This document shows positions 40,192 through 54,832 of a stretch of 55,031 nt of DNA, one piece after another (the first letter of the stretch is position 1; the number at the start of each line of letters is the position of its first letter). The stretch covers positions 1 to 55,031 of the forward strand of contig DYPL01000010.1 of assembly GCA_020719945.1 (NCBI GenBank), written 5' to 3'. The stretch is from Turneriella parva. Lineage in GTDB: Bacteria; Spirochaetota; Leptospiria; Turneriellales; Turneriellaceae. The notes below the pieces were generated by a model, which saw nothing but the letters and a program-made list of their open reading frames with translations, had not been told where the DNA came from and searched no databases. A program made the position numbers and the translations under genes.

Positions 40192-40256
40192 GCCGGCATT
40201 CTTTATTTTTCCGCCGGAGTGGCTACTGCTCTATTGTCCATCCACATGCGGTGGGC
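40192..40256 (+). repeat. Dispersed repeat, copy A (upstream of fliD)
   Basis: The 65 bases starting GCCGG and ending GCGGTGGGC align without gaps to two other intergenic stretches (51323-51387 and 54768-54832). By eye 40-44 of the last 60 positions agree pairwise. The best conserved parts are GAGTGGCTAC, the CTATT block and TGCGGTGGGC. This copy lacks the GCGCTTCGCGC lead found in the others. It lies in the 317-base gap between glgC and fliD, where I see no other gene. Confidence 0.7.
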
Positions 40257-40418
40257 TAATTGTTCTTATCCTATAGCGATATTTTGGGGCGTGAAAATAA
40301 TCTTTATGGTAGCTGGCAGTGTACTTGGTTTTGCGCAAAGTTGTTATCCATACCTTTCAGCCCAAAAAAAACGCTCAAGGATTCCAGGATTCGTCCGAGT
40401 AGTACAATAGAGGAATAT

Positions 40419-51215: not shown

Positions 51216-51299
51216 AACTTGAACAGCTTGTAAAGCGGATTAACATGGGAAAGTGATCAGACGGTTTTAGCAAGCGGTAGTGGAAATCATTTTGAGCTG

Positions 51300-51387
51300 G
51301 CGCTTCGCGCGGGGTACTTATTGCCGGAGGGAACTATTTAGCCGCCGGAGTAGCTACCGATCTATTAATCGTTCCCCTGCTGTGGGC
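51300..51387 (+). repeat. Dispersed repeat, copy B (upstream of the polymerase cassette)
   Basis: It begins GCGCTTCGCGC and ends GCTGTGGGC, 88 bases. It aligns without gaps to copy C (54745-54832): 25 of the first 28 and about 43 of the last 60 bases agree by eye. Copy A shares only the last 65. It lies in the 512-base gap between the helicase and the RecA-like gene; the rest of the gap holds a long hairpin and the cassette promoter. Confidence 0.75.
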
Positions 51388-51413: not shown

Positions 51414-51449
51414 CTCGATACGCTTGCCCAAAAAAGCAAGCGTATCGAG
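51414..51449. other. Perfect 14-bp stem hairpin in the repeat-B gap
   Basis: CTCGATACGCTTGC (51414-51427) and GCAAGCGTATCGAG (51436-51449) are perfect reverse complements around an eight-base loop. No T-run follows on either strand, so it is not a simple terminator. It may be part of the repeat element or a protein-binding site. Confidence 0.6.
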
Positions 51450-51540: not shown

Positions 51541-51568
51541 TTTACACTTCAAGCATGTTTACTATACA
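51541..51568 (+). promoter_or_regulatory. Promoter of the RecA-like/small protein/PolB operon
   Basis: TTTACA (51541-51546) and TATACA (51563-51568) are 16 bases apart, a good sigma-70 promoter. The predicted transcription start (about 51575) lies very close to the start codon, so the first message may be nearly leaderless. Confidence 0.6.
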
Positions 51569-51584
51569 GGAAAAGTGAACATGC
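51553..51584. promoter_or_regulatory. Palindromic operator candidate over the cassette promoter
   Basis: GCATGTTTAC (51553-51562) and GTGAACATGC (51575-51584) are inverted repeats matching at 9 of 10 bases with a 12-base spacer. The left arm fills the -35/-10 spacer and the right arm covers the transcription start, so a dimeric repressor bound here would block RNA polymerase. I do not recognise the binding protein; it is not an obvious LexA box. Confidence 0.6.
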
Positions 51585-52180
51585 AGTCAGCAAAGCGCCT
51601 TCCGTGGATTGGCAGTGGCTCCGCCGTTCTGCTCGGCAGTGATGCAAGAGAACTTGCCCATCTATCCATGTTACAGCTCGCTCTGCAAAATAAAAGCATA
51701 CACGTTGTCGATGGAGCCATCCAGTTTAATCCCTTTAAGCTTGTCGATGGCGCGCGCTCCCTGGGCATACACCCCGACCTCGTTTTAGAGAGGGTTACCG
51801 TGCAACGCGCTTTTTCGCCCTATCAGGTTCTCGATGCCGCGCGGGACACGCTCCATTTTCCCGAACGCCACACTGTTTTTTTAAGCCCCTTTAAGCAGTT
51901 TCTCGATAACGATGTCCAGGAACAGGAAGCCCTGTTTCTTCTTGGAAAACTCATACGTTTATACAGAGAATTCGAGACAAATCATTTGCCCGTCGTTTTT
52001 TCTGAGAGCAATCGCGTTTCGCTCAAGGCATCTGTTTACCGGCAGGCTCTTGCCAGCCTAGTTTCGAGCGCGCGCGTGTATACGTTTCCAGACTCTGATC
52101 GCGCTTCTCTTTCTCGCGCTCACTCGTTTTTACCAAACTTTTATTCAACCGCTGGGAGTACAACATGGGAAGAACCGTAG
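51581..52180 (+). CDS. Degenerate RecA/Rad51-fold protein without Walker motifs
   Basis: The ATG at 51581 follows AGGA by nine bases; a GTG two codons earlier is an alternative. The product (199 residues) follows the RecA/RadA core order. A beta-strand and loop where Walker A belongs reads G-S-D-A-R-E-L-A, with no Lys. Next come V-D-G-A-I-Q-F-N-P-F-K-L-V (cf. the D-T-E-G-T-F-x-P-E-R region of RadA), then D-L-V-L-E-R-V-T-V-Q-R-A-F-S-P-Y-Q. The Walker B strand is T-V-F-L-S-P-F instead of V-V-D-S. The helix and L-P-V-V-F-S-E-S-N strand fit the next core elements. It is therefore probably ATPase-dead, like ImuA-type RecA relatives. It overlaps the next gene by 16 bases. The family assignment is an inference from motif order. 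Confidence 0.6.
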   Translation: MQSAKRLPWIGSGSAVLLGSDARELAHLSMLQLALQNKSIHVVDGAIQFNPFKLVDGARSLGIHPDLVLERVTVQRAFSPYQVLDAARDTLHFPERHTVFLSPFKQFLDNDVQEQEALFLLGKLIRLYREFETNHLPVVFSESNRVSLKASVYRQALASLVSSARVYTFPDSDRASLSRAHSFLPNFYSTAGSTTWEEP

Positions 52181-52425
52181 CAGCCTATTCATGGCAAATA
52201 GAACACATAGAGCAGAGGCTTGCAGACTTCAGGCGGGCTCTGCGTCGCGAAGACCAGAAGCGTCTGGACGAGCTTTTGCGCTATGCCCGTTTTCACGTGA
52301 CCTCTGGCGTCATGGCGTCTTTTCCTTCTGCCAGCGATGCCATGTTCTGGAGCATTCTTTTGGAACAGCAAAGAAAAATAGAAGAGCTCGAAAAAACAGT
52401 TTCTTCGAGAGCAGCTAAAGGTTAA
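52165..52425 (+). CDS. Small helical protein between the RecA-like and PolB genes
   Basis: An 86-residue acidic/basic helical protein, not recognised. It has two amphipathic segments (I-E-Q-R-L-A-D-F-R-R-A-L-R-R-E-D-Q-K and W-S-I-L-L-E-Q-Q-R-K-I-E-E-L-E-K, the second coiled-coil-like). Its start overlaps the RecA-like gene by 16 bases and its stop is 12 bases before polB, so all three are co-translated. A bridging or accessory role for the polymerase is inferred from position. Confidence 0.65.
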   Translation: MGRTVAAYSWQIEHIEQRLADFRRALRREDQKRLDELLRYARFHVTSGVMASFPSASDAMFWSILLEQQRKIEELEKTVSSRAAKG

Positions 52426-52437
52426 CAGTATTAAACC

Positions 52438-54732
52438 ATGTCTACCGATATCCGTGGCTGGCTGTTTGATATATACCACCACGAAGATGAAATCACTCTC
52501 TGGATTCTGGACGACCAGCAGAAAGTCCATTATTTTCGAGATCATTTTTATCCCGTGATCTATGCAGCCGGAACACGCACGGCAGAAGAACATTTTATCA
52601 GAAGGCTTCGCGAGCTACAGGCGCTGCGTGAAGAACCCGTTCGAGTCATCAAAAAAGATTTTTATTCCAACCGGGAACGCGCTGTCTGGCAAATCACCAT
52701 ACAGCGTCCATCCGTTCTGCGCAGAATCCATCGTCGTTTATATGCATTCACAGACAAACTCGAAATTTTTCACTCGGACATTGAAATACCCGTATTCTAT
52801 CTGTACGCACGAGGGATTTTTCCGCTGGCCCGAGTAAAGGTTAGCAGCCTGCCATTTAACAAAGTTGGCCACATAGAAACAGAATTTCCCAATGACACTC
52901 CTTTTCGGGAAACCGATTACCAGCTTCCTGATTTCCGCACTCTTACGATGGAGCTCAAATATGCGCACCGCATGGGACTTTCGCGCACCAATCCTCTGCT
53001 TCTTCGTTTTGGCAGTGAAACCATGGAACTCGATTTGTCGCGGCCTCAGAAATTTTTAGAAGCGCTCAACGCGGTTTTGCTGCACTGGAATCCAGATATT
53101 CTCCTGAGTTCCTATGGCGACCAGATTCTGTTTCCCACTCTATTCAATCTTTCGCACAGAGAAAAAATTCCTCTTATGTTAGACCGCGACAACATTTATC
53201 TCTACCGCAATACGGGGTTTCGTGGAACCTCTTATGAATCCTATGGAAATATTCTTTTTCGTGCTGCCTCCTACCCCACCTATGGGCGCTGGCATATAGA
53301 CTCCTTTAACTCTTTTGCCTACCGCGAAACACAGCTCTATGGCGTAATAGAATTGTCTCGCACAACTCGCCTGCCCGTTCAAAAATTATCGAGAGCCTCT
53401 ACGGGACAGGCACTAACAGCCATGCAGGTCTGGAATGCCTTGCAGCAGGGCTATCTGGTTCCCTGGCAAAAATCGAGAATCGAGAAACCCAAAACGGCGG
53501 CAAAACTGTTGCAGGTAGACAAAGGGGGGCTCGTGTACATGCCCGACAATCGGGAGAGCTGCGTCCACGAACATGTTCTGGAACTCGACTACTCGCAAAT
53601 GTATCCCACCATTATGGTTCGCCACAATATTTCTCCCGAAACAGTTCTGTGCGATTGCTGCGAAAATAGTGAAAACGCAGAAACAGTGCCAAACAATGGA
53701 GACCATATCTGCGCGCTGCGCCGAGGAATTGTGCCGCTCACGCTGCAGCCCGTTTTGGAGCGCCGCAAACTTTTCAAGGAGATAAAAGCAAATGGCAGCC
53801 CGCAAGAAAGAGAACGCGCAGACCAGAGACAAAGCGCCCTCAAATGGATGCTCGTTACCTCGTTTGGATATCTTGGATACCGCAACGCAAAATTTGGAAG
53901 ACTGGAATCCCACGAGGCTGTAACAGCCTTTGGCCGCGACATTTTGTTAACCGGAAAAGAAATTGCGGAAGACGCGGGACTTTCTCTCGTCCATGCCCTC
54001 ACCGACTGCCTGTTCTTGAAATCCAATCCAGATCAGTTTGGCGAAAAAGAAGCCCGCGCTCTTGCCATTAAAATGGAAGAGGCAACGGGAGTAGAAATGA
54101 GCTACGAAGGAACGTTCTCCTGGATTGTGTTCCTGAACTCCAACACGGACAAAAAACAGCCAACGGCAACGCGCTATTTCGGGCGCTATACCAGTGGAGC
54201 CGTAAAGGCGCGCGGAATCTGGATGCGCAGAAAAGACATTCCGGCTTTTTTCAAAATTTTCCAGAAACAACTGCTCGCGATTCTATCTCTGCCCCAAAGC
54301 CTTGCCGAATTGAGCAATCAGATCCCGGAGGCAGAAGCGCTGTATCTGGAAAACCGCGCAAAAATCATCGAAAGAAAAGTCTCTGCCGAAGATCTTTTGT
54401 TTCGTCTCACAGTGGGAAAAGATCTTGCATCTTACCGGGTAGGTTCGCCCACGCATCTCATTTTGCGGCAGCTTCCCTCTTACCGCATTGCTCCGGGAGA
54501 AAAGGTGCGCTACCTTATCGCCAACCGTGCCCACAAAAATCCCCGCGAACGCTATCTTGCAGAAGAAACTCTAACAGAATACCAGCGGCAGGGCAAACCT
54601 ATTCCCATCGACATTCCCGTGTATCTTGAACATCTCTCTACCGCCTATCTTGAAATTGTGGAACCTTTGGCAGAGAGCGGCTATCGCATTTCTCTGGAGC
54701 GCAGGTTACAAAAGCAGCACTATCTGTTTTAA
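52438..54732 (+). CDS. Family B DNA polymerase with degenerate exonuclease
   Basis: The 764-residue polymerase has motif A L-D-Y-S-Q-M-Y-P-T-I-M (catalytic Asp384), motif B K469-W-M-L-V-T-S-F-G-Y-L-G-Y (canonical N-S-x-Y-G changed to T-S-F-G), and motif C H-A-L-T-D-C, in which the first Asp of DTD is Leu but the metal-binding second Asp (523) remains. A C-x-C-C ... H-x-x-C cluster (about 405-425) may bind zinc. The proofreading motifs are lost: the D-I-E site reads M-E-L-K (about 171), and the N-x-x-F-D and Y-x-x-x-D sites are absent. This pattern resembles PolB2-type enzymes; crenarchaeal Dpo2 acts in damage tolerance. It is probably error-prone, but activity must be shown. Confidence 0.85.
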   Translation: MSTDIRGWLFDIYHHEDEITLWILDDQQKVHYFRDHFYPVIYAAGTRTAEEHFIRRLRELQALREEPVRVIKKDFYSNRERAVWQITIQRPSVLRRIHRRLYAFTDKLEIFHSDIEIPVFYLYARGIFPLARVKVSSLPFNKVGHIETEFPNDTPFRETDYQLPDFRTLTMELKYAHRMGLSRTNPLLLRFGSETMELDLSRPQKFLEALNAVLLHWNPDILLSSYGDQILFPTLFNLSHREKIPLMLDRDNIYLYRNTGFRGTSYESYGNILFRAASYPTYGRWHIDSFNSFAYRETQLYGVIELSRTTRLPVQKLSRASTGQALTAMQVWNALQQGYLVPWQKSRIEKPKTAAKLLQVDKGGLVYMPDNRESCVHEHVLELDYSQMYPTIMVRHNISPETVLCDCCENSENAETVPNNGDHICALRRGIVPLTLQPVLERRKLFKEIKANGSPQERERADQRQSALKWMLVTSFGYLGYRNAKFGRLESHEAVTAFGRDILLTGKEIAEDAGLSLVHALTDCLFLKSNPDQFGEKEARALAIKMEEATGVEMSYEGTFSWIVFLNSNTDKKQPTATRYFGRYTSGAVKARGIWMRRKDIPAFFKIFQKQLLAILSLPQSLAELSNQIPEAEALYLENRAKIIERKVSAEDLLFRLTVGKDLASYRVGSPTHLILRQLPSYRIAPGEKVRYLIANRAHKNPRERYLAEETLTEYQRQGKPIPIDIPVYLEHLSTAYLEIVEPLAESGYRISLERRLQKQHYLF

Positions 54733-54744
54733 GGAAGTGTGAGG

Positions 54745-54832
54745 GCGCTTCGCGCAGGGTACGTATAGCCGGCAGAAAGTATTATTCCTCCAGAGTGGCT
54801 GCAGATCTATTGTTCATTCCACTGCGGTGGGC
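54745..54832 (+). repeat. Dispersed repeat, copy C (downstream of polB)
   Basis: Same 88-base layout and orientation as copy B, beginning 13 bases after the polymerase stop. Copies B and C thus bracket the RecA-like/small protein/PolB cassette as direct repeats about 3.4 kb apart. Beyond it lies the remnant of an RND pump gene. Confidence 0.75.

Follow-up and report, generated by a model that had tools for sequence, protein, structure and literature searches.

A predicted archaeal-type PolB2 mutasome operon in a Leptospirae-type spirochaete lineage

Background

What kind of system is specified by three adjacent genes that combine a RecA-like protein, a small protein and a family B DNA polymerase in a spirochaete genome? 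The genes are located on a stretch of 55,031 nucleotides, hereafter called the window, that belongs to contig C107 of genome G000 (2.42 Mb, rated 100% complete). According to the original prediction, which was made from this stretch of DNA alone, they constitute a regulated damage-tolerance mutasome that is related to PolB2/Dpo2, parallels ImuA-ImuB-DnaE2 in its layout and has no described bacterial counterpart of the same composition. The last of these claims has to be withdrawn, since both the composition and the gene order have been published (PMC4104785, PMC11791011).

A linkage of PolB2 with arCOG07300 and an inactive RadA was described for archaea and several bacteria, in some of them along with lexA (Makarova et al. 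2014, PMC4104785). Timinskas et al. 2025 (PMC11791011) introduced the names PPB2 and iRadA and found only the order iRadA-PPB2-PolB2 in bacteria. Their model is a heteropentamer, PolB2:iRadA:PPB2(3), with an MGRT arm in PPB2, a D(K/R) loop that contacts this arm, and clamp-binding motifs that are located in PolB2 or iRadA and rarely in both (PMC11791011). The Dpo2 protein of Sulfolobus islandicus is damage-inducible and responsible for targeted mutagenesis (PMC7390963), and it represents a proofreading-less extender polymerase that extends mispaired primer ends (PMC8764526). With respect to bacterial members of the PolB2 mutasome, no activity or expression data were found in the literature.

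Results and discussion

Genetic organization of the operon

Inspection of the open reading frames confirmed the three-gene set, including the 86-residue protein, on the plus strand between positions 51575 and 54732. The product of the first gene (51575-52180) was assigned to the catalytically dead RadA/Rad51-like subunit iRadA, that of the second (52165-52425) to the arCOG07300-type protein PPB2 with its N-terminal MGRT arm, and that of the third (52438-54732) to the B-family DNA polymerase PolB2. The start of the PPB2-like gene overlaps the end of the iRadA-like gene by 16 nt, and a gap of 12 nt separates the PPB2-like gene from polB2; the resulting arrangement is the sole order reported for bacteria. 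An ATG at position 51581 had been proposed as the first start codon, yielding a protein of 199 amino acids. In a sister species, represented by a MAG labelled Caldithrix (a label unsupported by the tree), ATC is present in place of this ATG and the GTG at position 51575 is retained, so that translation from GTG, yielding 201 amino acids, is at least as likely.

Other genes of the window encode Lon, a ClpX-like ATPase, FliD, FliG and a DeaD-type helicase, among others. Judging from these genes and from the Leptospirae-type spirochaete MAGs that are its nearest relatives, the host is a bacterium. The operon of the sister species (L016:295-1661) follows two genes that by eye look like hicA and hicB, and that of the window adjoins the DeaD helicase gene instead, which indicates a change of site within the genus. 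In the window, two directly oriented copies of a degenerate interspersed repeat, approximately 90 bp in length, are located one on either side of the operon (51299-51387 and 54744-54832, 78% identical), with a further copy at 40204-40261 and 11 matches genome-wide. Additionally, the intergenic DNA upstream of the operon contains a strong inverted repeat at 51414-51449, CTCGATACGCTTGC ... GCAAGCGTATCGAG, which is possibly a terminator or a small repeat.

Deduced subunits of the predicted mutasome

A search with the single iRadA sequence gave weak matches (best E 0.043), 22 of 22 being RadA/RAD51 proteins, and a family profile built from 16 orthologues matched RadA at E 1.5e-5 over a segment ending in the conserved motif RAF..Q. 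The AlphaFold model of iRadA (pLDDT 81, pTM 0.79) displayed a RadA-type fold, with members of the RadA/DMC1/RAD51 family making up all 50 of the 50 structures listed by Foldseek (best E 8.8e-8, TM about 0.5). The protein is thus a RadA/Rad51 homolog, and it lacks the N-terminal domain and the Walker A residues, as is characteristic of the mutasome subunit; the former Walker A segment (SAVLLGSDARELAH) also differs from that of its relatives. The RecA/Rad51 fold and the loss of Walker A that had been proposed for the first protein were therefore both borne out. No clamp-binding motif was seen by eye (unscored) at the end of iRadA, and Pfam and NCBIfam searches returned no family name for iRadA or PPB2.

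The PPB2 family comprises helical proteins of about 90 amino acids with an N-terminal MGRT sequence (PMC11791011). The window protein, with 86 amino acids, agrees in size, starts with MGRT and shares 30-53% identity with proteins encoded at the PPB2 position in other genera, archaeal operons included. The MGRT start is nearly or fully invariant and was found from spirochaetes to Methanomassiliicoccales.

The third protein, of 764 amino acids, was matched by Pfam DNA_pol_B at 2e-31, and among proteins of solved structure archaeal PolB enzymes are the closest to it. The model PRK05761.1-2 ('type B DNA-directed DNA polymerase') scored 342 bits, a value that lies below every family cut-off and yet greatly exceeds the 134 bits of the polymerase I model and the 43 bits of the polymerase II model. 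NF004416 was rejected as a PolB2-specific marker, as it also gives matches under its cut-off in E. coli and in four archaeal control genomes. Motif A (LELDYSQMYP) is intact and includes D384, motif B is altered, and motif C (HALTDC) has lost its first Asp, which is missing in every aligned relative, and has kept the second, D523; the two catalytic Asp residues of the original prediction are accordingly present. The older view that PolB2 is inactivated (PMC4104785), which would leave the complex with a structural or regulatory role, draws on the lost Asp of motif C and the altered motif B; considering, however, that D384 and D523 are kept and that S. islandicus Dpo2 is a robust polymerase in spite of the same loss in motif C (PMC8764526; PMC11791011), an inactive enzyme is quite unlikely.

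Within the exonuclease domain of PolB2, the DxE acids of Exo I are not conserved and the Asn and Asp of Exo II are replaced by Y226 and L231. The Tyr of Exo III is lost as well, and an invariant Asp, D288, is found at the position of the Exo III Asp or one residue from it. The proposed loss of all three exonuclease motifs was hence upheld for Exo I and Exo II, and Exo III is equivocal; this assignment is based on sequence alignment because the AlphaFold model of PolB2, computed from six sequences, was poor (pLDDT 55). The D(K/R) loop is represented by the conserved sequence LDRDN (D249-R250). PolB2 ends with a candidate beta-clamp-binding tail, QHYLF (54715-54729, plus strand; recognized by eye, unscored), and Q..LF-type tails occur in several relatives; binding of the clamp by such C-terminal tails was proposed previously (PMC11791011). 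A C-x-CC...H-x-C cluster follows motif A (C405, C407, C408, H423 and C425; about 53650-53712) and may possibly constitute a metal site. It was observed in most bacterial and partly in archaeal PolB2 proteins and is absent from the WOR-3 and Chloroflexota copies.

Distribution of the triad in genomes and phages

PolB2 was detected in 31 of 41 related genomes. In the PolB2 tree, the archaeal proteins form one side of a branch with 100/100 support and the window protein is placed in a bacterial group dominated by Spirochaetota, with MAGs of Leptospirae-type spirochaetes as nearest relatives; the PolB2 protein of the sister species is 93% identical. Most of the spirochaete (Leptospirae) loci examined contain the complete triad in the order iRadA-PPB2-PolB2; this order was also found in a Chloroflexota locus and in archaeal loci, and the triad in several archaeal and bacterial loci outside the spirochaetes. 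The co-occurrence of the two small genes with polB2 is conserved across Leptospirae-type spirochaetes and extends to archaea.

The same triad is carried by LE1-like Leptospira phages (KF114878-KF114880, KX656785), the gene order, read in KF114878 and KF114879, being that of the window. The phage PolB2 proteins are about 42-46% identical to the window protein, and the phage PPB2 genes specify MGRT proteins of 94 and 87 amino acids that are annotated in two records only as shorter unnamed fragments. Two IMG/VR contigs also contain iRadA-PPB2-PolB2, and the phage and IMG/VR triads are located at L137:4192-7445, L138:4207-7256, L139 and L140:3192-6253. The main text of PMC11791011 contains no mention of phages or Leptospira. 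Along with the relatives of PolB2 and PPB2 on haloarchaeal plasmids and the different neighbourhoods of the operon (hicAB-like genes in the sister species, the DeaD helicase gene in the window), the phage-borne triads could suggest that the polymerase is phage-derived or mobile cargo serving the replication or escape of its own element and not host damage tolerance; this explanation is nevertheless very unlikely, as no phage genes were seen beside the operon in the window and the operon is widespread in the class, being present in most of its genomes, as a chromosomal trait would be.

Translesion polymerases of the window's genome

The Y-family domains PF00817 (IMS) and PF11799 (IMS_C), both of which match in most control genomes, gave no match in the window's genome, so neither a Y-family UmuC (Pol V) nor ImuB was found; DnaE2 was likewise not found, with a single PolIII alpha subunit of the DnaE type detected. 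As PolB2 is in addition the single B-family match, it looks like the only recognizable specialized translesion polymerase of this genome. PolB2 without any Y-family match was likewise found in the sister genome and in several further genomes of the order, and within one genus G014 encodes PolB2 and lacks a Y-family match, with the reverse in G016. A class-wide anticorrelation was rejected, since Y-family matches are missing in 9 of the 31 PolB2-bearing and in 3 of the 10 PolB2-lacking genomes.

Replacement of DnaE2 by a B-family polymerase within a homologous ImuA-ImuB-DnaE2-like mutasome is extremely unlikely, because the similar logic (an operon encoding a RecA-fold protein, a small partner and an error-prone polymerase) is opposed by a genome without any Y-family protein and hence without ImuB, a lone PolIII alpha subunit of DnaE1 size, a RecA-fold protein closest to RadA/Rad51, and a PPB2 protein outside all Pfam and NCBIfam families; the parallel that was originally drawn therefore holds for design and not for homology.

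Transcriptional control of the operon

A candidate promoter was recognized in the sequence at 51541-51568 on the plus strand, consisting of TTTACA (51541-51546), a 16-nt spacer and TATACA (51563-51568). The surrounding block CAAAAAAAACTTTACACTT..TGTTTACTATACAGG is conserved in the sister species and the DNA further upstream differs. The promoter and the start codon are spanned by a palindrome, GCATGTTTAC-N12-GTGAACATGC (51553-51584), with 9 of 10 matching pairs; only 2.7% of Markov-shuffled promoters contain as many. This element of the original prediction is real in the window and uncommon by chance, but a role as operator is doubtful because the sister species retains only 6 of the 10 pairs. 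Since, moreover, lexA is located elsewhere in the genome, the description of the operon as regulated is unproven.

LexA and RecA are both encoded away from the operon. A comparison of the lexA, recA and iRadA promoters by eye yielded no clear common LexA operator; only ACTTTACA, of which the two strands of the 55 kb together contain a single copy, is shared by the regions preceding iRadA and lexA, here and in some relatives. The element may be nothing more than a -35 element, and its presence in the iRadA and lexA promoters is at this stage only a lead to a regulatory link. One genus of the same family includes several genomes with lexA-like genes no further than about 2-3 kb from polB2. The iRadA promoter of a related genus (L012, L013), likewise with a lexA-like gene near polB2, contains palindromes such as AAAGTACACCGATAGTGTACTTTT that likely represent a dedicated operator.

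Functional interpretation

The defining features of gene order, protein sequence and iRadA structure that could be checked for the published PolB2 mutasome were all found in the window set, which matches the already described archaeal-type damage-tolerance polymerase set and is a bacterial copy of it. With respect to the gene content, homology, motif states, iRadA fold and operon conservation observed here, along with a genome free of Y-family polymerases, the triad can be regarded with high confidence as the PolB2 mutasome operon in a lineage of Leptospirae-type spirochaetes. A damage-tolerance mutasome related to PolB2/Dpo2, as first suggested, accordingly explains the triad best and is consistent with the literature.

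The window operon shares with the published iRadA-PPB2-PolB2 sets (PMC11791011; PMC4104785) the three genes and their order, the dead RadA-like subunit, the MGRT arm, the D(K/R) loop, the loss of the first motif C Asp, the decayed exonuclease and a clamp-like tail in PolB2, with none evident in iRadA. It differs in belonging to an uncultivated Leptospirae-type lineage unnamed in the main text of PMC11791011, in having no adjacent lexA and in residing in a genome without Y-family polymerases. Sulfolobus islandicus Dpo2 (PMC7390963, PMC8764526) is likewise a PolB2-group polymerase without proofreading, but it is archaeal and uses a PCNA-based clamp, whereas the window copy is bacterial, carries a beta-clamp-like tail and has a predicted function. 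E. coli Pol V (UmuD'2C-RecA) and ImuA-ImuB-DnaE2 resemble the set in design, each combining a polymerase with a partner of the RecA/Rad51 family and a small accessory protein; the polymerase family and the small subunit of the window are others, and its Rad51-family partner is dedicated and ATPase-dead. The LE1-like operons have the same triad and order, but they are carried by phages and their PPB2 genes are annotated only as short unnamed fragments.

By analogy with the models of PMC11791011 and the archaeal Dpo2 experiments (PMC7390963, PMC8764526), complex formation, polymerase activity, an extender role, mutagenesis and induction would be expected of the window system. PolB2 would act as the catalytic subunit without proofreading, and iRadA would serve as a dead scaffold of the Rad51 fold, held by a PolB2 loop that mimics the Rad51 filament interface. 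A PPB2 trimer would place one MGRT arm near the PolB2 active site, and the C-terminal QHYLF would dock the complex on the beta clamp. After DNA damage, the complex probably elongates primer ends beyond lesions, with mutations as the cost. It is a tentative further proposal, somewhat less probable than its opposite, that SOS-type translesion synthesis and mutagenesis are run solely by an archaeal-type B-family mutasome here and in some relatives, the module also being present on temperate Leptospira phages.

Conclusion

The additions to PMC11791011 and PMC4104785 are the role of PolB2 as the apparent only translesion polymerase of a genome and the presence of the triad on LE1-like Leptospira phages. 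A lineage in which PolB2 is the only recognizable translesion polymerase would allow a clean test of the sufficiency of the complex for damage-induced mutagenesis. Mobile elements of other kinds carry mucAB and rumAB, and the phage-borne sets found here suggest a capacity of this mutator for transfer between spirochaetes.
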